A stretch of DNA of 64,000 nt, from positions 1-64,000 of IMG/VR virus record IMGVR_UViG_3300044695_002580; one strand, given 5' to 3'. The stretch comes from a virus. Both the position numbers and the translations under genes were made by a program. The notes below the pieces were generated by a model. The model was not told the origin of the DNA, searched no databases, and was given only the letters and a program-made list of their open reading frames with translations. Of the stretch, positions 6,032 to 22,743 are shown piece by piece. Numbering within the stretch: the stretch's first letter is position 1; every line of letters starts with the position of its first letter.

Positions 6032-8613
6032 GGCCTTCTCCTAGTTCCTCTTGCATCTCCAGCGGCGCCTCCGCCTCCAGAGTTTCCGCCACCGCTTGAA
6101 CCACCAGTACCTGTACCAGTAGAACCTGTAGCCGCACCAACTGCATTAATAGCAGCGCCTGCAGCCACAACGGCAGCAACTACCATTTCTGTTGCTTCTT
6201 CACGTTCTTCGGGGGACATATCAGCACCGATACTTCCAAGTGCTTTCAGGGCTTGACCAGGGTCATCAAATAATTCGCCAAGTAACTCCGCAGGGTTCTC
6301 TAGTAGCACGAGAGCCGCGGCAACGTCTGCTGTAATTATAACTTCATTACCGTTTTCATCCTGCCTAACCTCCACAGGAGTCTCTGGTGGGAGGTCCTGA
6401 TAGGCGATTCCAGCGTCTTGAATCTGCTCTTTTGTAAGGGTTTCGCCTGGGGCTACAGACTCGATAAGAGCCTCAGCAACAAGTTCCTTCTCAGCCGCAC
6501 TCAGCTTGCCATCTTCCTTAAGGGCGTCAACTAGAGCAGTAACTTCCTCAGCGGTAACTTCGCCATCTGCGCTTAGCGCATCTAGAACAGCCTCAGCATC
6601 GTCAGCAGTAAGTTTGCCATCAGATAAAACGTCTTCCACAGCACTAGTCACAGCCTCTTCTTCTGTGGTAGTCTCTGGGGATGATTCTTCTAACGGACTT
6701 TCTGGCTCTGTTTCTGGTGACTCTGGTTGTGCTTCTTCTTCCACGGGTGTTTCGTCTTCCGCAGGACTCTCCTCGTCTTCTACGACAGGCTCTTCGGGCG
6801 TTACCTCTGGTTGTTGCTCTTCTGTGGGTTCTGATGGCGTTTCTGTATCAGGGTCAGTAGATGAAGTATCAGTTGATTCATCTGTTGGGTCAGGTTCGCC
6901 ATCACCAACGGGTTCAGTTGGAGTCTCAGGGTCAGTATCAGGAGTGGACGATTCCTCTTGAGAAGGCTCTTGTGAAGGCTCTTGAGGATTTGGAGCGTCA
7001 GTAGATGGACTTTCAGAATCTGTCTGAGGAGGAGTGGTTGAAGCACCGTCAGAAGGAGACGTTGGAGTATCTGGAGTTGACGGCGCAGTTGGCGTTGAAG
7101 AAGAAGCAGCTGCTTGAGCAGCAGCTGCAGCAGCAGCCGCAGCAGCCTGTTGAGCCGCAAGTTCAGCAGCAGCCTGTGCAGCCGCAGCAGCCTGAGCCTC
7201 CGCTTCAATACGAGAGTTCGTACTGGACACCACAGGAGCGATAGCTTCAGCTTTTGCAATTGCAGTATCCGCTAATTGATTAGCTGTATCTAAAGCAGCA
7301 GTAGCAACCGTAGTAGCAGCCTCAGCAGCAGCAGTAACTGTTGTTAAGTTTGTGTTGGCTGTTGTTAAGCTTTCCTGTGCTGTTGTCAGGTTTTGAGTAG
7401 CTGTTGTTAAGTTTTGATTAGCAGTAGTTAAAGTAGCCTGTGCAGCAGTTAGCGCAGCCTGTTGCTCTGGAGTAGCAGATGATTGAGAAAACTCAGAACC
7501 AGGTGCTATAACCCAGCCTGTTGACGGGTTATGACGATAGAACCAAACACCAGCTCCACCACCGTTTTCGTAGTACCACAGTTCAAATGCTTTGCTAGTT
7601 CCAGCAGATATAGGGGCCGCATTAACGCTTCCTCCGCCACCTTTGTCATACCAGTCGTTAATAACAAGTTGACCATCAAGGTACAGTTTTACCCCGTCAT
7701 CTGCAGGAGCAAGAACATGGGTTACATCAATTGAAGGTGTCCAAGTCCCTGTGTATTTAACAATTACATCCTCATGAAGGTTAGAGCCAGCAACGTACCC
7801 GCTGCCCCACTGTTCGTTAATTCCGTTTGTATCTGTAGTTGTGTGAACAGGAGTTGCATTTGTAGGAAGAGTTGGGGCGTTATTCTGACCTTGTACGTTG
7901 TAAACCTCTACCTTTAATCCTGGAGAAGTATTAGCATCTACAGCAGCCTGAGCAGTAGTAACGTCTTGCGTTACTACTGCTACAACTGCAGTCTTATCTT
8001 CTACAACAATAGCCGCAGCAGCGACGGTTGAGGTAGCGGTTTCGACTGCCGCTGCTGCGGGTGCTATAAGTGCAGTGGCGCTATCGGCAGCTTGCACTAA
8101 AGTTGTGGCTGTAGCCAAAGATTCTTGAGCAGCAGTAATAGCAGTATTTGCCTCTGCTACAGCTGTTACAACTGATGTCTCAGAAGCTGCAGCTGTTGGT
8201 ATAATTGTGTTAGCAACAGTGGCTGTTGCTGTATCAATCTTCTCTTGTACGGAGGTAACTGTAGGTGTCTCAGGAACTGTTGTGGTTATTGGTGTTGCCT
8301 CTGGTGTGGTGGTTTGGTTGGGCGATGGCGTTCCAGTGGATGAAGATTCGTTTGATGGTTCAGTTGGACCAGCTGAAGAAGGAGACTCTTGAGGCGAAGG
8401 CTCTTGTGCTTGAGTTACAGAAGTCTCAGGAGGGCTGGTTACAACGAGAGTCACGTCAGGCGATGGAGCGCTCGTTACAGTCGCTCCGTCCACGGGAGCA
8501 GGAGTAATTACCTGCTCACTTGGGGCAGGCTCATTCGCGTGAGCGGTATTTTGACTGAGTAAGTGTAGGAGTGTTGATAGAAATAGTGCTGCGAGTATAC
8601 GCAGTTTATAAAT
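6028..8613 (-). CDS. Large secreted PA14-domain surface protein, probable AUU start
   Basis: A GTG at 8493 can start an 821-residue frame, but the frame continues upstream without ATG, GTG or TTG through a clear signal peptide (RILAALFLSTLLHLL, then AHA-NE). A strong AAGGAG lies five bases before an ATT at 8611-8613, so I infer AUU initiation. After the signal come Ala-rich helices, a PA14 carbohydrate-binding domain (DDGVKLYLDGQLVINDW), more Ala-rich coiled coil, a Pro/Ser/Glu linker, EF-hand-like DGKLTADDAEAVLDALSADG repeats, a hydrophobic helix, and a Gly-rich tail ending RGTRRRP. It was probably acquired as an exported adhesin; its lysis-cassette position is odd. Confidence 0.6.
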   Translation of the reverse strand: MYKLRILAALFLSTLLHLLSQNTAHANEPAPSEQVITPAPVDGATVTSAPSPDVTLVVTSPPETSVTQAQEPSPQESPSSAGPTEPSNESSSTGTPSPNQTTTPEATPITTTVPETPTVTSVQEKIDTATATVANTIIPTAAASETSVVTAVAEANTAITAAQESLATATTLVQAADSATALIAPAAAAVETATSTVAAAAIVVEDKTAVVAVVTQDVTTAQAAVDANTSPGLKVEVYNVQGQNNAPTLPTNATPVHTTTDTNGINEQWGSGYVAGSNLHEDVIVKYTGTWTPSIDVTHVLAPADDGVKLYLDGQLVINDWYDKGGGGSVNAAPISAGTSKAFELWYYENGGGAGVWFYRHNPSTGWVIAPGSEFSQSSATPEQQAALTAAQATLTTANQNLTTATQNLTTAQESLTTANTNLTTVTAAAEAATTVATAALDTANQLADTAIAKAEAIAPVVSSTNSRIEAEAQAAAAAQAAAELAAQQAAAAAAAAAAQAAASSSTPTAPSTPDTPTSPSDGASTTPPQTDSESPSTDAPNPQEPSQEPSQEESSTPDTDPETPTEPVGDGEPDPTDESTDTSSTDPDTETPSEPTEEQQPEVTPEEPVVEDEESPAEDETPVEEEAQPESPETEPESPLEESSPETTTEEEAVTSAVEDVLSDGKLTADDAEAVLDALSADGEVTAEEVTALVDALKEDGKLSAAEKELVAEALIESVAPGETLTKEQIQDAGIAYQDLPPETPVEVRQDENGNEVIITADVAAALVLLENPAELLGELFDDPGQALKALGSIGADMSPEEREEATEMVVAAVVAAGAAINAVGAATGSTGTGTGGSSGGGNSGGGGAAGDARGTRRRP

Positions 8614-12950: not shown

Positions 12951-12976
12951 GAGGCGCGGACTTCCCCCCGCGCCTC
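12951..12976 (+). terminator. Rho-independent-type hairpin
   Basis: GAGGCGCGG pairs with CCGCGCCTC around an eight-base loop, followed by a second hairpin ATTCCCC/GGGGAAT at 12982-12998. There is no long T-run, so termination strength is uncertain. Confidence 0.6.
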
Positions 12977-13003
12977 TCTCGATTCCCCGTAGGGGAATGG
13001 GGA

Positions 13004-13021
13004 GGGTGGGCCAACACAAAC
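13004..13021 (+). repeat. Solitary right arm of the GTTTGTGTTGG inverted repeat
   Basis: GGGTGGGCCAACACAAAC carries the conserved CCAACACAAAC arm with no nearby left arm. Its partner sequence in inverted orientation is at 13793-13810 (17 of 18 bases complementary), on the far side of two genes. Confidence 0.6.
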
Positions 13022-13072: not shown

Positions 13073-13189
13073 TTCTGTGAGTCGGGCGTGTCGGCTTGAC
13101 ACCCCACGCGGTCGGGCGTGTTGCCAATCCTGTGAGTTTTTAGACTTTCGGCGTGTCGCATTGTATCTATCAGGGCTATCAACTAGATT
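13073..13189 (+). promoter_or_regulatory. Rightward cassette promoter 2 (three boxes plus -10)
   Basis: A short box ends at 13093, a degenerate GGGCGTGTTG lies near 13121, and a long box (TCCTGTGAGT...GGCGTGTCG) ends at 13158. TTGTAT (13161) and TAGATT (13184-13189) follow with a 17-base spacer, so the -10 starts 26 bases after the box. It serves 13220-13522. Confidence 0.6.
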
Positions 13190-13753: not shown

Positions 13754-13760
13754 GTTGTTC

Positions 13761-13786
13761 AGCCCCGCGGCCGTTCCCGCGGGGCT
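13761..13786 (+). terminator. Rho-independent-type hairpin
   Basis: AGCCCCGCGG pairs with CCGCGGGGCT around a six-base loop, seven bases after the stop of the 53-residue gene. The solitary left repeat arm follows at 13793. Confidence 0.65.
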
Positions 13787-13792
13787 GGCGCA

Positions 13793-13810
13793 GTTTGTGT
13801 TGGCCCGCCC
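13793..13810 (+). repeat. Solitary left arm of the GTTTGTGTTGG inverted repeat
   Basis: GTTTGTGTTGGCCCGCCC has no matching right arm before the next box. It is inverted relative to 13004-13021. Confidence 0.6.
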
Positions 13811-13850
13811 ACCCCGTTCTATATTTATATAGGGAGTTAGGGAAAGAGAA

Positions 13851-14610: not shown

Positions 14611-14643
14611 GGCCCCAGTGGATATCCCTTCCCCACTGGGGCC
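14611..14643 (+). terminator. Rho-independent terminator
   Basis: GGCCCCAGTGG pairs with CCACTGGGGCC, followed by TTTT. The strongest canonical terminator of the rightward block. Confidence 0.8.
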
Positions 14644-14669
14644 TTTTGCTTGCCCTATTAAACGAGAAT

Positions 14670-14751
14670 GTTTGTGTTGGGGCTTATGGGCGTGTGTGTA
14701 TAAACATTTCGATATATATCTTCATATACACACATAAGCCCCAACACAAAC
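14670..14751 (+). repeat. GTTTGTGTTGG inverted repeat (hairpin A)
   Basis: The left arm GTTTGTGTTGGGGCTTATG matches the right arm perfectly over 19 bases. TGTGTGTAT/ATACACACA inner pairing extends it, interrupted by a GGCG bulge. The 14541-14893 gap holds only this element, the terminator and the promoter boxes. Confidence 0.75.
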
Positions 14752-14754
14752 CTT

Positions 14755-14848
14755 TCCTGAGAGTCGGGCGTGTCGCCCTGGTGCAATCCTGTGAATAATA
14801 AGACTATCGGCGTGTCGCTGATAAGGCTGAGAGATAAGAGTCTAGTAT
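14755..14848 (+). promoter_or_regulatory. Rightward cassette promoter 4
   Basis: A short box TCCTGAGAGTCGGGCGTGTCG ends at 14775 and a long box (TCCTGTGAAT...CGGCGTGTCG) ends at 14817. TAGTAT (14843-14848) starts 26 bases after it. It serves the DUF932 gene. Confidence 0.65.
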
Positions 14849-14893
14849 TAGGGCACGCGAGACGGTCTCGCGAATTGAAGGGGGGTGTGCCTT

Positions 14894-15901
14894 ATGGCGC
14901 ACGACTTGGAAATGGAGAACGGCGAGGTTGCCTTCGCGCTACGCGGGGCACCCGCTTGGCACGGTCTAGCAAACCGCACATTCTCCGCTGATGAGCATGT
15001 CTCAACTGCAGACATGCTCTCTGCTGCAAAACTAGACGGATGGAATGTCCGCCTAGAGGATGCGATTTATCCTGAAGGATACCGCACCAACTCTGACCTA
15101 TTCATGGTCACACGCACCAATCCATTCGATGCGGGCACTGACGTGCTTGCAATCGTCGGTAAGCGTTACCGCGTATTCCAAAACGAGGATTTATTCACCT
15201 TCGGTGATAACATCCTAGACGGTGGCGCATCATGGGAGTCTGCTGGCTCCATTAAAAACGGCAAGGTAGTCTTTGGCTCCCTAGTCGTACCTCGCGAGTT
15301 CATTCTCGACCCTAACGGCGCTGCTGATAAGACTACTACTTATCTGCTCGTTCATACATCACACGATGGCTCTGCATCAGTTCAAGCATCCATTACTCCA
15401 GTTCGCGTGGTCTGCCAAAACACGCTCCATGTCGCACTGAATAACACCAAGAGTTCATTCAAGTTGCGCCATACTCTCAAGGTAGAGGGTCGCGTTGCTG
15501 AGGCTCGCATGGCTCTTGGTCTCACCTTCAATTACATGGATGAATTCGAATCCATCGCTAAGTCTCTCTTTGAGACTCCAATGAACGCCGTTCAATGGGA
15601 TAAGTTGATTAACACAATTTACCCTAAGCCTGATGCTAACCAAGCGCCACAAGTGAGCACCAAGTGGCAGGCTAAGCGCGACCTACTGGATGATATTTAC
15701 TTCCAGTCTCCAACCCAGACCAACATCAAGGGCAATTACTGGGGCGCCCTCAATGCACTCACTGAGCGCATCGATTACTTCCGCACTGGTCGCACCGCCA
15801 ATGGCGAGGCGCTCATCGGAGCAGCCAGTGGGTTCGACCCAGTGGTCAATGCGGAAAAGTCCCGCATCCTCCGCGCCGTCCGCGAGTTAGCGAGCGCGTA
15901 A
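14894..15901 (+). CDS. DUF932 / phage-plasmid-like protein
   Basis: A 335-residue protein from the ATG at 14894, eight bases after AAGGGGGG. Features typical of the DUF932 (TIGR03299, phage/plasmid-like) family: APAWHGL near the start, YRTNSDLFMVTRTNPF, GKRYRVFQNEDLF, and VRVVCQNTLHVAL around residues 170-185. The family is widespread in plasmids and phages; its molecular function is not established. It forms its own transcription unit between cassettes. Confidence 0.8.
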   Translation: MAHDLEMENGEVAFALRGAPAWHGLANRTFSADEHVSTADMLSAAKLDGWNVRLEDAIYPEGYRTNSDLFMVTRTNPFDAGTDVLAIVGKRYRVFQNEDLFTFGDNILDGGASWESAGSIKNGKVVFGSLVVPREFILDPNGAADKTTTYLLVHTSHDGSASVQASITPVRVVCQNTLHVALNNTKSSFKLRHTLKVEGRVAEARMALGLTFNYMDEFESIAKSLFETPMNAVQWDKLINTIYPKPDANQAPQVSTKWQAKRDLLDDIYFQSPTQTNIKGNYWGALNALTERIDYFRTGRTANGEALIGAASGFDPVVNAEKSRILRAVRELASA

Positions 15902-15908
15902 GCCTACT

Positions 15909-15935
15909 AAGCCCCCCGCATCCAGCGGGGGGCTT
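15909..15935 (+). terminator. Rho-independent terminator
   Basis: AAGCCCCCCGC pairs with GCGGGGGGCTT, with TTT after the stem, eight bases after the DUF932 stop. Confidence 0.75.
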
Positions 15936-15957
15936 TGGCATGCTCAAAAGAAGCTGA

Positions 15958-15978
15958 TTATCCACAGCCTGTGGATAA
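15958..15978. promoter_or_regulatory. Inverted pair of consensus DnaA boxes
   Basis: TTATCCACA (15958-15966) and TGTGGATAA (15970-15978) are both perfect matches to the bacterial DnaA box, in inverted orientation with a three-base centre. They lie between a terminator and hairpin B in non-coding DNA. It could be an origin element or a DnaA-responsive site, or act as one more hairpin. Confidence 0.5.
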
Positions 15979-15980
15979 GT

Positions 15981-16070
15981 GTTTGTGTTGGGGGCTTACT
16001 GAACAGATACTAATACAAGGTATAGGTAGCGTTCATAACAGCACCTATACAGTAAGCCCCCAACACAAAC
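15981..16070 (+). repeat. GTTTGTGTTGG inverted repeat (hairpin B)
   Basis: The left arm GTTTGTGTTGGGGGCTTACT continues to G and matches the right arm perfectly over 21 bases. An inner stem GTATAGGT/ACCTATAC is nested in the loop. With the DnaA boxes, terminator and boxes it fills the 15902-16216 gap. Confidence 0.8.
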
Positions 16071-16174
16071 CTTAGAGTCGGGCGTGTCTGAGAGTGTGGC
16101 GTGTCTGCTTTCCTGTGAGTTTTAGAGATTATGGGCGTGTCGTGAAAGAGATAGCAGACCCCTATGGTTAGATA
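16071..16174 (+). promoter_or_regulatory. Rightward cassette promoter 5
   Basis: Two short boxes (ending 16090 and 16107) and a long box (TCCTGTGAGT...GGGCGTGTCG) ending at 16142. TAGATA (16169-16174) starts 27 bases after it. It serves the leader ORF and the genes at 16249 and 16791. Confidence 0.6.
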
Positions 16175-16216
16175 CTCGTAGTGGAAATACCACTATTAGA
16201 GAGAAGGAGAAATCCA

Positions 16217-16249
16217 ATGCTTGATAACCCAATCAAGGAACGACTCTAA
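16217..16249 (+). CDS. 10-residue leader peptide
   Basis: ATG at 16217 has a strong GAAGGAG seven bases upstream and encodes MLDNPIKERL. Its TAA overlaps the next gene's ATG (TAATG). The next gene's own ATG has no better RBS, so translation probably couples through this leader. Confidence 0.4.
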   Translation: MLDNPIKERL

Positions 16250-16710
16250 TGATGAAGGGGGGTGATACTATCTTTACACGCAACAACGCTCAACTCATTG
16301 AGCAACAAGCCGTTCGCAACCCTATGGTTGATGGACAATACTTTACCAACATGACCGAACTACTTTGGTCTGATGGGACTATTACATTCGGTTGCCTCAA
16401 GTGTGGCGAACAAACCGAAAGCCGACCACAACTATCTATCCATGTGGGCAAGGCACACAATCCAAAGCCTGCTAAGACTACTAAGACTATTAAGTATAAA
16501 GCGGTCAAGGCAACAGGCACACGACCATACACCAAGCGCAACAAGGAATACTGGGCAAATGGTGGCAACATCAACCAAAATCGTAGAACAACAACCGACT
16601 CTACTCTAGCCGATAAGGAACTAGAGTTTTGGAAGGCGCAAGCGCACCGAGCAGAGGCTGAACTCCGCAAGGTAAAAGCGCAACTAAAAGCCCTACTAGA
16701 CATAAAGTAG
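16249..16710 (+). CDS. C2H2 zinc-finger protein
   Basis: A 153-residue protein with one classical-looking finger around residues 49-70 (CLKCGEQTESRPQLSIHVGK then AH). A basic Thr/Lys-rich linker and a C-terminal coiled coil (FWKAQAHRAEAELRKVKAQL) follow. Probably a DNA-binding dimer. An AAGGGGGG lies inside the first codons, so a later start cannot be excluded. Coupled to the leader peptide. Confidence 0.6.
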   Translation: MMKGGDTIFTRNNAQLIEQQAVRNPMVDGQYFTNMTELLWSDGTITFGCLKCGEQTESRPQLSIHVGKAHNPKPAKTTKTIKYKAVKATGTRPYTKRNKEYWANGGNINQNRRTTTDSTLADKELEFWKAQAHRAEAELRKVKAQLKALLDIK

Positions 16711-16790
16711 GCAGGGTTTCTCACCCCCCGTGAGATAGCACCTGAGCAAGTGGCTAAAAGGCTCACCACCAACTAACGAAGGGTAAGAAA

Positions 16791-17189
16791 GTGGCAACCA
16801 CTATAAAAGTAGATAGGCTAGTCCTATTAGATGCTCTACAAGTAAAATTGGCAGAGCAAGATAAACTCCGTGCCGAATACAAAAAGGCTGAGGAGAAATA
16901 CAAGAAAGAGCAGGAAGCCTTTGCTGATAAGGTTCTAGCATTGGCTAAGTCAGGCAAGTTAGAGGTTCATAGAGTCAATACCCGCACCTACAACGGCGGG
17001 CTGATTGAGGTTGAGTGGAAGGCTGACCGCGCACTCATCAACTCCGAACCACAGAGTCCTGACCGACCTGAGGGCTGGGTTCATGAAAGCGATTATGAGG
17101 AACTCCGTAAGACTATCAGATTGCTTAGCATGACGACAGAGCCTTATGTTCCTGCCTCAACTTATCGCGCAGTATCACAATGGCTTTAA
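16791..17189 (+). CDS. Coiled-coil hypothetical protein
   Basis: A 132-residue protein from a GTG start, preceded by GAAGGG. Residues 10-60 form a charged coiled coil (KLAEQDKLRAEYKKAEEKYK), then a beta-rich part with EVEWKADR. No family recognised. Confidence 0.5.
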   Translation: MATTIKVDRLVLLDALQVKLAEQDKLRAEYKKAEEKYKKEQEAFADKVLALAKSGKLEVHRVNTRTYNGGLIEVEWKADRALINSEPQSPDRPEGWVHESDYEELRKTIRLLSMTTEPYVPASTYRAVSQWL

Positions 17190-17305
17190 TAGCATAGGGC
17201 TATTAAACACTCCTGAGCATGAGTATAAAAGGCTTCACCTTTGACATAGGGTGCTTTCGTAAGGGGTAGGACTATTATCTCCATTCTAGTCCTCCCGTGT
17301 TGTCA

Positions 17306-17339
17306 ATAAGCCCCCCGCCTGTGGAGTCGGGGGGCTTAT
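17306..17339 (+). terminator. Rho-independent terminator
   Basis: ATAAGCCCCCCG pairs perfectly with CGGGGGGCTTAT over 12 bases. Confidence 0.75.
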
Positions 17340-17340
17340 T

Positions 17341-17427
17341 GTTTGTGCTGGGCTTGCTGTAATAAGTAGCTATCACGGTATAGGTACGGATTTCATCTCT
17401 GCCTATACCAGCAAGCCCAGCACAAAC
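17341..17427 (+). repeat. GTTTGTGCTGG inverted repeat (hairpin C), covarying
   Basis: Left arm GTTTGTGCTGGGCTTGCTG and right arm CAGCAAGCCCAGCACAAAC match over 19 bases. Relative to the other copies, base 8 is C instead of T on the left and G instead of A on the right, a compensatory change. Inner stem GGTATAGG/CCTATACC. It is the main non-coding element of the 17190-17543 gap. Confidence 0.8.
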
Positions 17428-17429
17428 TT

Positions 17430-17515
17430 TCCTGTGAACTCGGGCGTGTCGTATCCTGTGAGTTTTGGAGAACTCGGGCGTGTCGCTTTGGTGTGGAGAG
17501 AGATGAGAGTATTGT
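17430..17515 (+). promoter_or_regulatory. Rightward cassette promoter 6
   Basis: A short box ends at 17451 and a long box (TCCTGTGAGT...CGGGCGTGTCG) ends at 17485. TTTGGT, 17 bases, and TATTGT (17510-17515) follow; the -10 starts 25 bases after the box. It serves 17544-18791. Confidence 0.55.
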
Positions 17516-17543
17516 TCGCCTTACCCAATAGAAGGGGGTATGT

Positions 17544-18065
17544 ATGAACAGTTTAGAACGCAAAGAGCGTTTTACAGAACTGATGGCAACGATAGAGTTG
17601 TTGCCTAGTGTAGATGATGAAAACTACGAGCCTGTATTTCCTAAGGGAACACTAGGCTTATCAGATGGCAACCTCAAGACCGCAATCATGGCACAGGCTA
17701 TGAGAGGTGATGAGGACTTCGTTGGTAATCTTATCAACGCGCTCGCCAACACAGGCTTCGAGGCTTGCCACGCCAAGCATGAGGCTGATGAAACACCTAA
17801 CGACGACGACCTCTCCGCTATCACACTAGCAATCCATGTAGCGTGGGCGAGTGGCGCACTAGCCCCTATGCTACTCCTATTAGGTGGCATGGGTAAGATG
17901 TTATCTGCCCTAGATGTAGATGTGCCTGAGGATTTGCCACTCATTTTCCGTCCTAACGGCTTGATGGCTGATAAGGCAGGTAAGTTCGACCCGATAGCCC
18001 TACTAGACATGGATAAGGCTAGCCTTATCAAATACATGGCAAAGGAGTTGGGTGATGACGACTAA
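17544..18065 (+). CDS. Hypothetical protein
   Basis: A 173-residue acidic, largely helical protein with a hydrophobic middle (ITLAIHVAWASGALAPMLLL). This is either a buried helix or a membrane segment. RBS AAGGGGG five bases before the ATG. Overlaps the next gene by 14 bases. No family recognised. Confidence 0.5.
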   Translation: MNSLERKERFTELMATIELLPSVDDENYEPVFPKGTLGLSDGNLKTAIMAQAMRGDEDFVGNLINALANTGFEACHAKHEADETPNDDDLSAITLAIHVAWASGALAPMLLLLGGMGKMLSALDVDVPEDLPLIFRPNGLMADKAGKFDPIALLDMDKASLIKYMAKELGDDD

Positions 18066-18276
18066 AATTGTAGATGGCGTAAAGATGGTAGAGGTGCCCT
18101 TCACAATTACTTACAATGTCCTCGTAGAGGAGCACAAGTACCTAGAGTATGTAACTTCGGGTATCCCAGTAGGTGCTATGGCACAGGCTGGTAAAGAAAC
18201 CCTATTAGATGTAACCAAGCCTGTTATAGATAAGGCTAATGAAAACTGGACAACTATGATGGTAGAGGTGGCGTAA
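18052..18276 (+). CDS. Small hypothetical protein
   Basis: A 74-residue protein with an N-terminal beta hairpin (VDGVKMVEVPFTITYNVLVE) and a C-terminal helix. It overlaps both neighbours (14 bases; TAATG). No family recognised. Confidence 0.5.
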   Translation: MMTTKIVDGVKMVEVPFTITYNVLVEEHKYLEYVTSGIPVGAMAQAGKETLLDVTKPVIDKANENWTTMMVEVA

Positions 18277-18791
18277 TGGGTATGGATGTCTATGGTACTA
18301 AGCCTACTAGCGAGAAGGGCGAGTATTTCAGAAATAACGTGTGGTGGTGGCGACCACTATGGGATTACTGTGAGCATGTAGCGCCCGAACTGTGTGAAGG
18401 CGTGAGTGCCCACTACAACGACGGAGATGGATTAAATGATGAGAAGGCCAAGGCGCTCTCTAAAATCCTTCTAGAAACCCTATCAGATGGCAGATGCCTA
18501 ATCTATGAGGCGCAGTACAACCTAGAGGTCTCGCAACTTCCTAATGAGGACTGCAATATATGTGATAAGACTGGCATACGCACCGACGAGGTGGGTAAAG
18601 AGCACGGCATGGATGTAAAAGCCCTATCAGATGATGAGGCTATCGTGTTAGGAAGGGAAACGGGCTGGTGTAATGGGTGTAACGGTCTTGGTTGGAAGCC
18701 AAACTGGGCAACTCACTATCCATTCTCGCGTGAGAACGTACAAGAGTTCGCAGAGTTCCTAGCAGAAAGTGGTGGATTCAGTATCTGCTAG
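18276..18791 (+). CDS. Zinc-binding protein of the MDVYG type
   Basis: A 171-residue protein starting MGMDVYGTKPTSEKGEYFRN with a Trp-rich WWWRPLWDYC. Two zinc knuckles follow (CNICDKTG near 104 and CNGCNGLGW near 141), like half of a DnaJ CxxCxGxG domain. The MDVYG start recurs in phage and plasmid proteins of unknown function. Possibly a chaperone-like zinc module. Confidence 0.55.
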   Translation: MGMDVYGTKPTSEKGEYFRNNVWWWRPLWDYCEHVAPELCEGVSAHYNDGDGLNDEKAKALSKILLETLSDGRCLIYEAQYNLEVSQLPNEDCNICDKTGIRTDEVGKEHGMDVKALSDDEAIVLGRETGWCNGCNGLGWKPNWATHYPFSRENVQEFAEFLAESGGFSIC

Positions 18792-18818
18792 GGTTACCCC
18801 CTTCAACTAATCCACCAA

Positions 18819-18852
18819 ATAGGGCTAGCAAGCACCAGCTTGCTGGCCCTAT
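18819..18852 (+). terminator. Rho-independent-type hairpin
   Basis: ATAGGGC then TAGCAAGC pair with GCTTGCTG then GCCCTAT, 28 bases after the stop. Confidence 0.6.
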
Positions 18853-18877
18853 CTCTTTGCCTGGCGGCGGCAGCAGA

Positions 18878-19018
18878 GTTTGTGTTGGCCCACCCATCGC
18901 TCATAATGTATTCAATTATACATTATTCGCTTTCCCACCCTTTATGACCTTTTTTAATATAAAAAAGGTCATTCTGCCCATTGGGCTATTGGCTTTAGCC
19001 ATATAGCCCAACACAAAC
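18878..19018 (+). repeat. GTTTGTGTTGG inverted repeat (hairpin D) with nested stems
   Basis: Only the 11-base arms GTTTGTGTTGG/CCAACACAAAC are conserved here. The long loop holds AATGTAT/ATACATT and a perfect 12-base stem ATGACCTTTTTT/AAAAAAGGTCAT (18944-18972). The 18792-19342 gap has this, two box promoters and one weak ORF (19137-19346) that I did not accept. Confidence 0.65.
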
Positions 19019-19342: not shown

Positions 19343-20875
19343 ATGACTACCAACCTTGCGTTGCTCGTAGTGAGCAACACCGAACTAGAGGGGATTCCTG
19401 CACAGGCGCAGACTCTCCTTATTGGAACAGATACCGAGGTCTTAGGGTATCACCGCGTATCAAATGGTGCGAAGGGTCGAGGACAGGCGTGGCAGGTAAT
19501 GTCCGACCTTCCTACTAGCCCTATCTCACACTCTCCCGTTGCCGTCGTATTAAGCGACCGCGACCTAGTAATGCTTCAACTAGGGCAGATTACCAATGTC
19601 GGTATCAAAGCCCTATACGCCCTAGAAACCGCACCAACGGCTTCCGCGTCCTTCCCACACAATGAGGCAGTAGATAACCTTATCAAGCGCCTAGAGGAAG
19701 GCGACTCCACCCTTGCCGAGTTTATTGCAGATAAGCGACGCACACAGGCAGTAGATATTAAGCCTATCAAGCAGGGTGTATTACCAATTTCGGCGAACGC
19801 GACCGCGCCCGTCGTGCCTAACAAGCCTATTACTATCGAGGCTAATAGGACTATAAGTGACTCACTCGTCAATGCTATGGTGAGCGTACCCGACAAGGCG
19901 TTTAGTAAGGCTTATATCAACCGCAAGGTCGTAGGCGGTCTTACCGACTTCGAAATTATGGACTTCGCCATGAAGTCGAGCAAGAACGTACTTATCGAGG
20001 GTCACGCAGGTAGCGGTAAGACGGCTATGGTACAGGCGTATGCGTCTGCACGTGGATATCGGTATTTTAACGTCGCTTGCCATATTGGATTAGAGGCTTC
20101 ACACCTAATCGGTCGTTGGATTCCTACTCCCGAAGGACACTTCCGTTGGCAGGACGGCGCAGTTACAGAGATAGTCCGTAATGGTGGCGTACTCCTATTT
20201 AACGAGATTAACTTCGCACCCGAGCGTTTTCTCACCTTTATCTTTAGCCTATTAGATTACCGTCGTGAGATTCAACTCATGGAAAATGGTGGCGAGGTTA
20301 TCAAGGCTCACCCCGACCTACTTATCGTGGCAGATATGAACCCCGACTACCGAGGCACACGCCCACTCAACCAAGCGTTAGCCGACCGCTTCCCCGAGCG
20401 TTTGGTATTCCCATACGATAATGCTATCGAACAGAAGTTACTCGGTAGCAAAGCCCTATTAGATATGGCGAACCAACTCCGTACCGAGTTTGATAAGGGT
20501 ACTATCAACACCCCTATCTCTACCCGTAATCTAGTAGCCTTTGCAGATAACGCTAAGGCGCTAGGTATGGACTTCGCCACCTATTGCTATATCAACTCCT
20601 TCGAGGGAGATGAGGAACGTAGTGCAGTAAGACTATTACTCACCACTCACCGCGACAATATCGCTAGTGACTTCGGGCTACCAACCCTTAATAAGGCTAC
20701 CTTTGGCAATTCAAATACCGAACAAGCCATATTAAATACAGAAGTAGGCGCACAGATTGACGGCTTCGAGTCGCTAGTGCAGGACTCAACTCCCGAACTC
20801 AACGATATCCATGCAATAGATACCTTTATCAACGCACTTAATAACCCTATTGACGACGTGGTAGGTAGCAACTAA
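19343..20875 (+). CDS. MoxR/CobS-like AAA ATPase
   Basis: A 510-residue protein, RBS AAGGGG. Residues 1-190 are unassigned. The AAA core has Walker A GHAGSGKT (about 218-226), Walker B LLFNEINFAPERF (about 283; Asn replaces the usual Asp) and a sensor/finger region PDYRGTRPLNQALADRFPER. This is the AAA_5 (MoxR/CbbQ/CobS) class, which remodels or inserts cofactors into partner proteins. Its stop overlaps the next gene's ATG; the next gene is a VWA protein, the standard MoxR partner. Confidence 0.8.
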   Translation: MTTNLALLVVSNTELEGIPAQAQTLLIGTDTEVLGYHRVSNGAKGRGQAWQVMSDLPTSPISHSPVAVVLSDRDLVMLQLGQITNVGIKALYALETAPTASASFPHNEAVDNLIKRLEEGDSTLAEFIADKRRTQAVDIKPIKQGVLPISANATAPVVPNKPITIEANRTISDSLVNAMVSVPDKAFSKAYINRKVVGGLTDFEIMDFAMKSSKNVLIEGHAGSGKTAMVQAYASARGYRYFNVACHIGLEASHLIGRWIPTPEGHFRWQDGAVTEIVRNGGVLLFNEINFAPERFLTFIFSLLDYRREIQLMENGGEVIKAHPDLLIVADMNPDYRGTRPLNQALADRFPERLVFPYDNAIEQKLLGSKALLDMANQLRTEFDKGTINTPISTRNLVAFADNAKALGMDFATYCYINSFEGDEERSAVRLLLTTHRDNIASDFGLPTLNKATFGNSNTEQAILNTEVGAQIDGFESLVQDSTPELNDIHAIDTFINALNNPIDDVVGSN

Positions 20876-22743
20876 TGGGTCGCTACGATAGCCACGACGA
20901 CCTACTCGATAGGCTTATTGAACAGACACGCGAGGCTAATTGGCGTGACGATATCGAGTACGACAAAGAACTCGAACAGGAACGCCTAGAGGAACATATC
21001 AACAAATTACAGGCGGTGGGTGCGGTCTATGGTCGCACCGACCGTATCCTCACCGCCGAGCCAGTAGAGGTACGTGTCGAGGATAATAAGGAAATGGATA
21101 CGACCGCCTACAATGACGGCAAGAATATCGTGTTCAATGCTCACCTTATCGAGGACGTAGATGATAAGACTATTATCTCTCTCAACGGCTTCAACTACCA
21201 TGAGGTCGGTCACGTCCTTTACTCACCTAGAGGCGGTAGCGAGTTTGGTAAGACAGTTAAGCGCGAGAACCTAGAGAAAGCCTTTAACGTCCTAGAGGAC
21301 GCTCGTATCGAACGCCTACTAATCGCAAAGTATCCTGCCGTTGCACCCTTCATGGAAGCCTCATGCCTAGAGTATCTACTCAAGGGTGACTCCGCAGAGT
21401 TTGGTGCGTACTTCCCACTATTTACGGGTCGTAAGTATTTAGATATAGAATTGCGACAGGAAATTGCAGATAGGTTTATTAAAGACTTCGGCGTAGAGTT
21501 AGCCGTTGCTATCGCGTCTATCGTGCATGAGTACCGAACTCTCGTATATCCACGCGACTTCCATAGAGGACTCGAGTTACTACGTGCTATGGCAGATATC
21601 GTCGGTCGAGAAGTAACTAACGAAGTTAATGATAAGCCTATTCTACCCAACGGTAACGGCGGTCATATCGACCGCGACGTACAGGACAAGGGGCGCATGA
21701 AGGGCGACAAAGAACAGAAAGCCCAACAAGATAAGGCTACCAACAACGAGTCGGGCGACGGCGCAGGGGAACAACTAGACGACCCTGCCGACACAAATAC
21801 CGAGAACGACCGCAATAGCACCAGTTTCTCTAGCAAGGGTAAGGACGAAGCCGACGACAACGTGCTACGTAAAGATATCCAAGAACGACTAGATAACCTT
21901 AGCAAGAAGGACGACGTACAACAGGGTGCGCGTGAAGTACGCAAGGCTATCAACGACAACAATGAACGTCGTAGTGCTATTAAACAAGGCGCTTACTCCA
22001 ACCAACAGGTATCTCCACAGGTATCTGCGAGCGCCCGAGCCTTCGGCGTAGCCCTAGAGCGTGTCCGTATAGATAACGACCCTATGTGGGAGTTAGAGCA
22101 ACCTATGGGGCGCTTAAATATAGGACGTGCCATGAGAGCCGATATCAACGACATGGACAAAGTGTTCGACCGTTGGAGTGAGGGTAACTCCAACAATGAT
22201 ATTGACGCGATAGTCCTAGTAGATACTTCGGGCAGTATGTCGTGGCAGATTCAACGCACTATGGAAAGCGCGTGGGTAATCAAGCGCGGTATCGAGCGTA
22301 TCAACGGTCGCGTATCGGTCTATAAGTTTAACCACGATAGTAGGCTTATCTACTCCGCTACCGATAAGGCTCAACCAACCGAGTATCGCTACGTCAATTC
22401 CTCGGGTGGCACTAACCCTTACAAAGCCCTATTAGAAGCACGTCGCCAACTATTAAATAGCAAGCGTGGAGTGCGTATGCTATTTATCGTCACCGACGGC
22501 GAGTGGGATATGACCGAGGACAACAATAAGATTATTAGCGACCTCACTAAGGACGGAGTGCAGACTTCGGTGGTCTATCTAGGTAGCCTCAAGGGTTGGG
22601 GCGAGTATGACCGAGCAGAGCATGACGCACGTGTAGAGCGTTACCGTCATGGTGCTAAGCACTTCCGCGAGGTCGAGGAACCTAATCAAATGGTGCTAGT
22701 CGCTAAAGATATCGTCAAAGCGACTATGAGCGCCCGTCATTAG
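20875..22743 (+). CDS. Zincin-like plus VWA-domain protein (MoxR partner)
   Basis: A 622-residue protein. Residues 109-113 are HEVGH (HExxH zinc motif) followed by NVLEDARIE (138-146), which may give the third ligand. Residues 265-360 are a charged, low-complexity linker. The C-terminal VWA domain has the MIDAS motif DTSGSMSW (about 449) and downstream GGTNP and FIVTDGEW. It resembles CobT-like proteins that pair with MoxR/CobS ATPases. The target is unknown; candidates are host complex disassembly or metal insertion. Confidence 0.75.
   Translation: MGRYDSHDDLLDRLIEQTREANWRDDIEYDKELEQERLEEHINKLQAVGAVYGRTDRILTAEPVEVRVEDNKEMDTTAYNDGKNIVFNAHLIEDVDDKTIISLNGFNYHEVGHVLYSPRGGSEFGKTVKRENLEKAFNVLEDARIERLLIAKYPAVAPFMEASCLEYLLKGDSAEFGAYFPLFTGRKYLDIELRQEIADRFIKDFGVELAVAIASIVHEYRTLVYPRDFHRGLELLRAMADIVGREVTNEVNDKPILPNGNGGHIDRDVQDKGRMKGDKEQKAQQDKATNNESGDGAGEQLDDPADTNTENDRNSTSFSSKGKDEADDNVLRKDIQERLDNLSKKDDVQQGAREVRKAINDNNERRSAIKQGAYSNQQVSPQVSASARAFGVALERVRIDNDPMWELEQPMGRLNIGRAMRADINDMDKVFDRWSEGNSNNDIDAIVLVDTSGSMSWQIQRTMESAWVIKRGIERINGRVSVYKFNHDSRLIYSATDKAQPTEYRYVNSSGGTNPYKALLEARRQLLNSKRGVRMLFIVTDGEWDMTEDNNKIISDLTKDGVQTSVVYLGSLKGWGEYDRAEHDARVERYRHGAKHFREVEEPNQMVLVAKDIVKATMSARH

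Follow-up and report, generated by a model that had tools for sequence, protein, structure and literature searches.

Between consecutive transcription units of its early region, a freshwater bacterial virus, like many of its relatives, carries hairpin elements made of a fixed 11-bp arm and an interior that varies freely while nearly always staying paired. The stretch analysed here, called the window, consists of bases 1-64000 of the 96,881-base phage record IMGVR_UViG_3300044695_002580. Judging from the sequences of these elements and of their relatives in other phages, their pairing is best explained as being kept as DNA, not as RNA. We tentatively read them as insulator-like boundary elements acting as folded DNA, one per junction of consecutive early transcription units, a reading that we favour without calling it probable. 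The element would also, or alternatively, serve as a seam for module exchange.

Four inverted repeats of the window share the outer arms GTTTGTGTTGG/CCAACACAAAC (Table 1). Allowing at most one mismatch, GTTTGTGTTGG occurs 15 times in the window, against a mean of 1.35 and a maximum of 5 in shuffled sequences. The first three elements are the sole perfect inverted repeats of at least 18 bp within 160 bp in the whole window, for a random expectation of ~1e-4. Fold z-scores of the elements range from -8.2 to -10.1 as RNA, and from -7.3 to -9.6 as DNA. The preliminary description of this DNA, made from its letters alone, had reported four intergenic repeats with constant outer arms, one of which (17341-17427) has a C/G replacement in both arms; both observations hold. 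It had added that the inner stems differ yet stay paired, which is true of three copies, whereas the fourth is built differently, with an 11-bp outer stem, C-rich linkers and three inner hairpins. Beyond these four, the junctions at 13011-13021 (minus strand) and 13793-13803 (plus strand) each have only one arm, accompanied by a C-rich run plus a small hairpin. The arm is present at all 6 visible terminator-to-promoter junctions of the early region (12.2-25.3 kb, most genes on the plus strand), both terminators and promoters being predicted, and the proposed placement between a terminator and a box promoter is strongly supported at all four repeats. The later gaps of this region, where no terminator is visible, have no arm, except for two matches within coding sequence. 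Single arms at 7348, 22973 and 24483 are inside coding sequence and were taken as chance occurrences.

Homologues that keep the pairing were found in viral metagenomes, family members being gathered by pattern scans of IMG/VR. The paired-arm pattern GTTTGTGYTGGN{35,65}CCARCACAAAC detected 37 stretches, as did a relaxed version of it, and the C-rich single-arm pattern GTTTGTGTTGGCCCACCC gave 41 matches. As a control, the arm read backwards gave no match in 20 phage records. In bacterial genomes, 4 pattern matches were obtained, versus ~2 expected by estimate; three are apparently in coding sequence. The fourth (L060:303-373, from an Acetobacteraceae metagenome-assembled genome) is a single GTTTGTGTTGG hairpin with a long paired interior, apparently intergenic, which may be due to chance.

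Junctions were counted in 27 loci, using the co-directional gaps between the first and last element. The arm was present in 110 of the 118 gaps of at least 200 nt (about 93%), versus 1 of the 91 gaps shorter than 60 nt. This junction occupancy is a fairer figure of conservation than the letters of the arm, positions 1-7 of which are partly fixed by the search pattern itself. Along the DNA, the terminator comes first, directly followed by the fixed 11-bp arm, then by the predicted operator/promoter. The arm was kept while the proteins encoded nearby diverged, the median identities within their families being down to 32-63%.

A set of 66 distinct two-arm intergenic elements, placed in gene orientation, was compared. 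By the length of the outer stem, this set splits into type A (41 elements, 18-26 bp) and types B and D (25 elements, 8-11 bp), none being intermediate. Elements are 59-142 bp long. Type A elements have an asymmetric bulge and an upper hairpin, the larger bulge being on the 5′ side in 30 of 41. Type B elements have C-rich linkers and several hairpins, and are found mostly upstream of an AAA gene; type D elements have a GT-rich interior. A fourth form, type C, combines a single arm with a C-rich run and a small hairpin. Within a subset of this type, 17 distinct hairpins were collected, the stems of which vary by copy around a near-constant CCCACCC[AT]CCC loop. Of 88 clear cases, 85 have the C-rich tag of types B and C on the sense strand. 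At many type C junctions (L064-L095, e.g. L080:2190-2228), a motif GCC..CCCnAnGCC..AAT is present between the terminator and the arm.

The interior of the stems covaries. In the 41 type A elements, positions 12-18 are Watson-Crick paired in 287 of 287 cells, with 23 different heptamers; when right halves were exchanged among elements, paired cells fell to a mean of 138 and a maximum of 174. When eleven copies were aligned, pairing of the outer helix was 100%; six pairs had changed in both partners and no pair in just one of them, and the covariation score was reached by none of 500 shuffles. Two copies of locus L045 share an identical 15-nt bulge, TAATAAGTAGCTATC, with different stems. Covariation and a maintained fold are therefore strongly supported. 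The preliminary description had gone one step further, from covariation to selection for the folded form. Covariation alone does not prove this, because template switching can create, maintain and repair perfect stems, and can also yield paired changes (PMC8794818).

To separate pairing in DNA from pairing in RNA, we started from the expectation that a fold acting as sense RNA should tolerate G·U but not A·C, and used the terminators just upstream as an internal control. Non-standard pairs were counted on the sense strand, by the same rule for elements and terminators; an earlier G·U count from RNAfold structures was dropped, as loops add spurious pairs. In terminator regions, 1584 Watson-Crick pairs were accompanied by 58 G·T, 2 A·C and 17 other non-standard pairs. 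The corresponding numbers were 3, 1 and 4 per 869 in type A, 2, 4 and 3 per 346 in types B and D, and 3, 5 and 8 per 548 in type C, that is 8 G·T, 10 A·C and 15 others per 1763 for all elements. The G·T:A·C ratio of 8:10 differs from the 58:2 of terminators (Fisher p = 2e-6, an optimistic value as related helices are not phylogenetically independent, though its direction is clear). With a stricter rule, type A had no non-standard pair in 871, and terminators had 27 in 1510; the 41 type A outer stems add up to 875 Watson-Crick pairs and, at the stricter setting, are free of internal mismatches. The reverse bias expected of an antisense RNA was also absent from the elements. Unlike in terminators, there is no strand bias in the pairs of the elements, and their pairing is therefore best explained at the DNA level.

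Interiors were found to be copied and inverted. For ten pairs of type A interiors, the match is better in inverted than in direct orientation. One case is clear: it opposes L049:8301 and L017:1095 to L049:9558, L050:11367 and L039:3399, with ~50 nt inverted between the same arms and inverted scores of 27-52, versus a null maximum of 22; these cases probably reflect one event. Such inversions are in keeping with a site that functions as double-stranded DNA. Several similar interiors are also found at different junctions, with flanks at chance identity (e.g. L051:6749 and 7823). While the elements stay, the gene modules lying between them undergo gain, loss, exchange and reordering: modules F20, F21, F23 and F5 are present or absent among loci, and F23 changes place relative to F0. 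Loci L046 and L048 have a different gene between two retained elements, homology stopping ~50 nt beyond one element and restarting at the left arm of the next, and in the comparison of L049 with L050 the limits of the absent F21 module lie at the arms. Matching arms may draw BLAST ends towards them, so the break positions are uncertain and the data indicate an association, not a mechanism.

The boundary reading starts from the position of the elements, their fixed arm, their free but paired interior, pairing at the DNA level and the association with module exchange. The 11-bp arm would be the recognition site of a conserved DNA-binding factor, probably from the host. Negative supercoiling, accumulating upstream of each active early promoter, would extrude the interior into a hairpin or cruciform, and the extruded block would shield the next promoter from the read-through and supercoiling of the preceding unit. 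The same block could offer phage recombination a spot where modules are swapped without breaking regulation. The cruciform or insulator put forward in the preliminary description fits better than an RNA. Several points weigh on the other side. The arm-binding protein, the extruded structure and the insulation are steps that we infer, and this option is not proven. The orientation of the C-rich tag and the 5′ preference of the type A bulge exceed what a plain insulator needs and are RNA-like; the former is compatible with a protein complex that has an orientation, with a function in recombination or, less probably, with one as RNA. As type C has only a single arm and a hairpin of small size, a large cruciform is not common to all elements. 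The relatedness of the helices, mentioned above, bears on the pair-type test. Finally, template switching between arms during replication could leave the same Watson-Crick-only signature. It may contribute, but seems insufficient by itself, because the short type C stems and the conserved bulges also behave as selected structure.

A first alternative, unlikely but serious, is that the elements are recombination seams for the gain, loss and reordering of early gene cassettes, insulation being secondary. They would act either as patches of homology or as folded sites used by a host recombinase. The presence/absence and displacement of modules, the homology breaks at or beside elements and the copied or inverted interiors all speak for such a role, and the length, fixed ends and variable folded interior recall the attC sites of integrons. 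Yet the uncertainty of the break positions applies here too, a homology patch would need no paired and diversified interior, and domain searches of 11 phage records detected neither a tyrosine recombinase (PF00589) nor a serine resolvase, host enzymes being outside the search. In attC sites, R''/R' boxes (RYYYAAC...GTTRRRY) stand at the ends, with L boxes and an unpaired central spacer. Our elements resemble attC (PMC5371416, PMC3053210, PMC6393395) in their short fixed ends, variable folded DNA interior, similar length range, set orientation and distribution of one per gene module. They differ in ending with GTTTGTG...CACAAAC, in having type A outer stems perfectly paired over 18-26 bp, without the R/L box pair and unpaired central spacer, and in bounding modules that appear to carry their own promoters and terminators. 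On the features compared, attC is the nearest match in build, but the elements do not belong to it.

The homology-patch variant has its counterpart in the promoter early stem-loops (PeSLs) of T4-like phages (Arbiol 2010 and Comeau 2014, cited in PMC4503421). As PMC4503421 describes them, PeSLs are intergenic stem-loops by early promoters, dense among shuffling genes and tied to module exchange. In our phages, stem-loop, terminator and box/operator repeats occur together, the promoters being predicted only; early gene modules are likewise shuffled through presence, absence and changes of order. However, set against that description, a separate element comes after the terminator here, in relatives of actinophages; its arms are fixed over 11 bp, its Watson-Crick stems are diversified, and it has bulges as well as C-rich loops. 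The genome is not that of a T4-like myovirus either, the nearest described relatives being Streptomyces BRock-type phages. Going by the same description, PeSLs are the nearest match in place and association, and the elements are not PeSLs on the features compared.

An RNA element is a still less likely explanation. The hairpin would be present in read-through transcripts, where it would be cut by host RNase III or would block exonucleases or RNA polymerase, separating the mRNAs. Its very stable fold, its location after a terminator and an orientation tied to transcription agree with this, and stems of 18-26 bp, as the outer stems of type A, suit RNase III. The processing hairpins of T7 are also long, intergenic and early, with an asymmetric bulge; they differ from the present elements, which stand between terminator and promoter, have arms fixed in sequence and lack RNA-type covariation. 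The processing site and the non-coding RNA considered in the preliminary description are disfavoured by the lack of G·U preference, by the type A interior found inverted between the same arms, and by the absence of an RNase III domain (PF14622) from the 11 phage records. Moreover, types B, C and D have no long duplex, and a site located after the terminator T-run and before the promoter is transcribed by read-through only. Orientation had first suggested RNA for the three-hairpin and C-rich forms, but the pair-type test gave no support. A Ro/Y-RNA reading was dropped, as no TROVE protein was found in the phage record. Instead of the U-tract of an intrinsic terminator, right arms are followed by CTTTCC, ATTTGCC, AACCAGG or the like.

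It is quite improbable that the elements are arm-bounded units copied between junctions in the manner of miniature inverted-repeat transposable elements, with stems kept by template switching and not by selection for folding: the copies and inversions amid unrelated flanks, the capacity of template switching to maintain perfect stems, and the homogenisation of inverted-repeat arms and inversion of spacers described in PMC8604942 would be accounted for, but one element or one arm is present at nearly every long junction, stems change around a conserved bulge and loop, such a process is unlikely to maintain a single-arm type C whose stem has 4-6 bp, no target-site duplication was visible by eye in the inspected flanks (no formal scan being made), and no transposase was found, though domain searches covered integrase and resolvase only.

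Other known systems gave no match. An Rfam search of the window returned only three tRNAs above the gathering score, leaving the elements unmatched. Described phages searched with one junction of the window gave chance-level matches only, and no shared-arm hairpin was found in the regions fetched from the described relatives LuckySocke, BRock, Jay2Jay and DalanDe. The 17-bp palindromic repeats of Cluster O mycobacteriophages are, like the elements, repeated inverted sequences of an actinophage, linked to deletions between copies and of function not known, but they consist of a fixed 17-bp site with a 3-bp spacer, without a variable paired interior, and about one third are inside genes (PMC4351075). 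We found no report of such an element in the literature. Fixed ends and an interior that nearly always folds, apparently as DNA, suggest a gene-unit divider of a kind not described so far, the exact function of which is unproven.

Features of the window are listed in Table 1. The phage encodes a class II ribonucleotide reductase, RecA, DNA polymerase A and a terminase; its DNA polymerase (polA) is ~40% identical to that of Streptomyces BRock-type phages. A copy related to the 14670 element, with a longer paired stem, is found at L045:11618. Boxes similar to the one at 14790 start at 13131, 13854, 17457 and 19241, plus 12276, ahead of the first early gene. The box CCTGTGA-N13-CGGCGTGTCG is phage-specific and near early genes, and its half CGACACGCCG is also found in many relatives. 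An AAA_5 ATPase and VWA (CobT-like) gene pair occupies 19343-22743, and is mostly preceded by a type B element; distant relatives of the VWA protein occur in phages of Gordonia and Brevibacterium. Likely ribosome-binding sites in the 12-25 kb region are unusually G-rich (AAGGGGGGT), and complementary to the CCCACCCTCCC loops of type C elements. Repeats resembling the binding sites of host regulators are present near elements at 15958-15978 and in L045, L048-L050, L051, L075, L081, L086 and L088, either in the interval from element to early gene or immediately ahead of the element. Their kind differs by phage (candidate DnaA boxes TTATCCACAG, LexA/SOS box CGAACAGATGTTCGAA, CRP/GlxR sites TGTGANNNNNNTCACA and parS GTTTCACGTGAAAC), and they could be operators or decoys.

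Table 1. Elements and adjacent features of the early region, in window coordinates.
Feature	Position	Strand	Description
Type A element	14670..14751	+	Upstream of DUF932 gene; perfect outer stem 19 bp, short 5′ bulge, upper stem, large loop
Type A element	15981..16070	+	Perfect outer stem 21 bp, 5′ bulge ~19 nt, upper hairpin
Type A element, C/G arm variant	17341..17427	+	Outer stem 19 bp, 18-nt 5′ bulge TAATAAGTAGCTATCACG, upper hairpin
Type B element	18878..19018	+	Upstream of AAA/VWA genes; 11-bp outer stem, two CCCACCC linkers, three inner hairpins
Type C single-arm element	13793..13849	+	GTTTGTGTTGGCCCGCCCACCCC, then small hairpin, GA-rich tail
Type C single-arm element, reverse orientation	12974..13021	-	Similar in L044, L048, L067, L070
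Terminator-like hairpin before 13011 element	12951..12976	+	Read from sequence
Terminator-like hairpin before 13793 element	13760..13787	+	
Terminator-like hairpin with T-run before 14670 element	14611..14647	+	Read from sequence
Terminator-like hairpin before 15981 element	15909..15936	+	Read from sequence
Terminator-like hairpin immediately before 17341 element	17304..17341	+	
Terminator-like hairpin before 18878 element	18821..18850	+	Read from sequence
Box-promoter-like repeat CCTGTGA-N13-CGGCGTGTCG	14790..14820	+	After 14670 element

Compensatory changes usually count as proof that an RNA is functional; in the present case, the neighbouring terminators, used as an internal control, argue for DNA, and the G·T versus A·C test with such a control is applicable to other covarying elements. 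In its broadest form, which we regard as doubtful, the boundary reading would define a new genetic punctuation: hairpins selected for folding of DNA, not of RNA, would mark and insulate nearly every early unit of a widespread actinophage group and define the seams of its modules, a conserved factor reading the 11-bp arm. If this is true, these phages would provide a direct route to the part played by cruciforms in gene regulation, in the insulation of supercoiling and in module exchange, and folded DNA would be their gene-unit punctuation.

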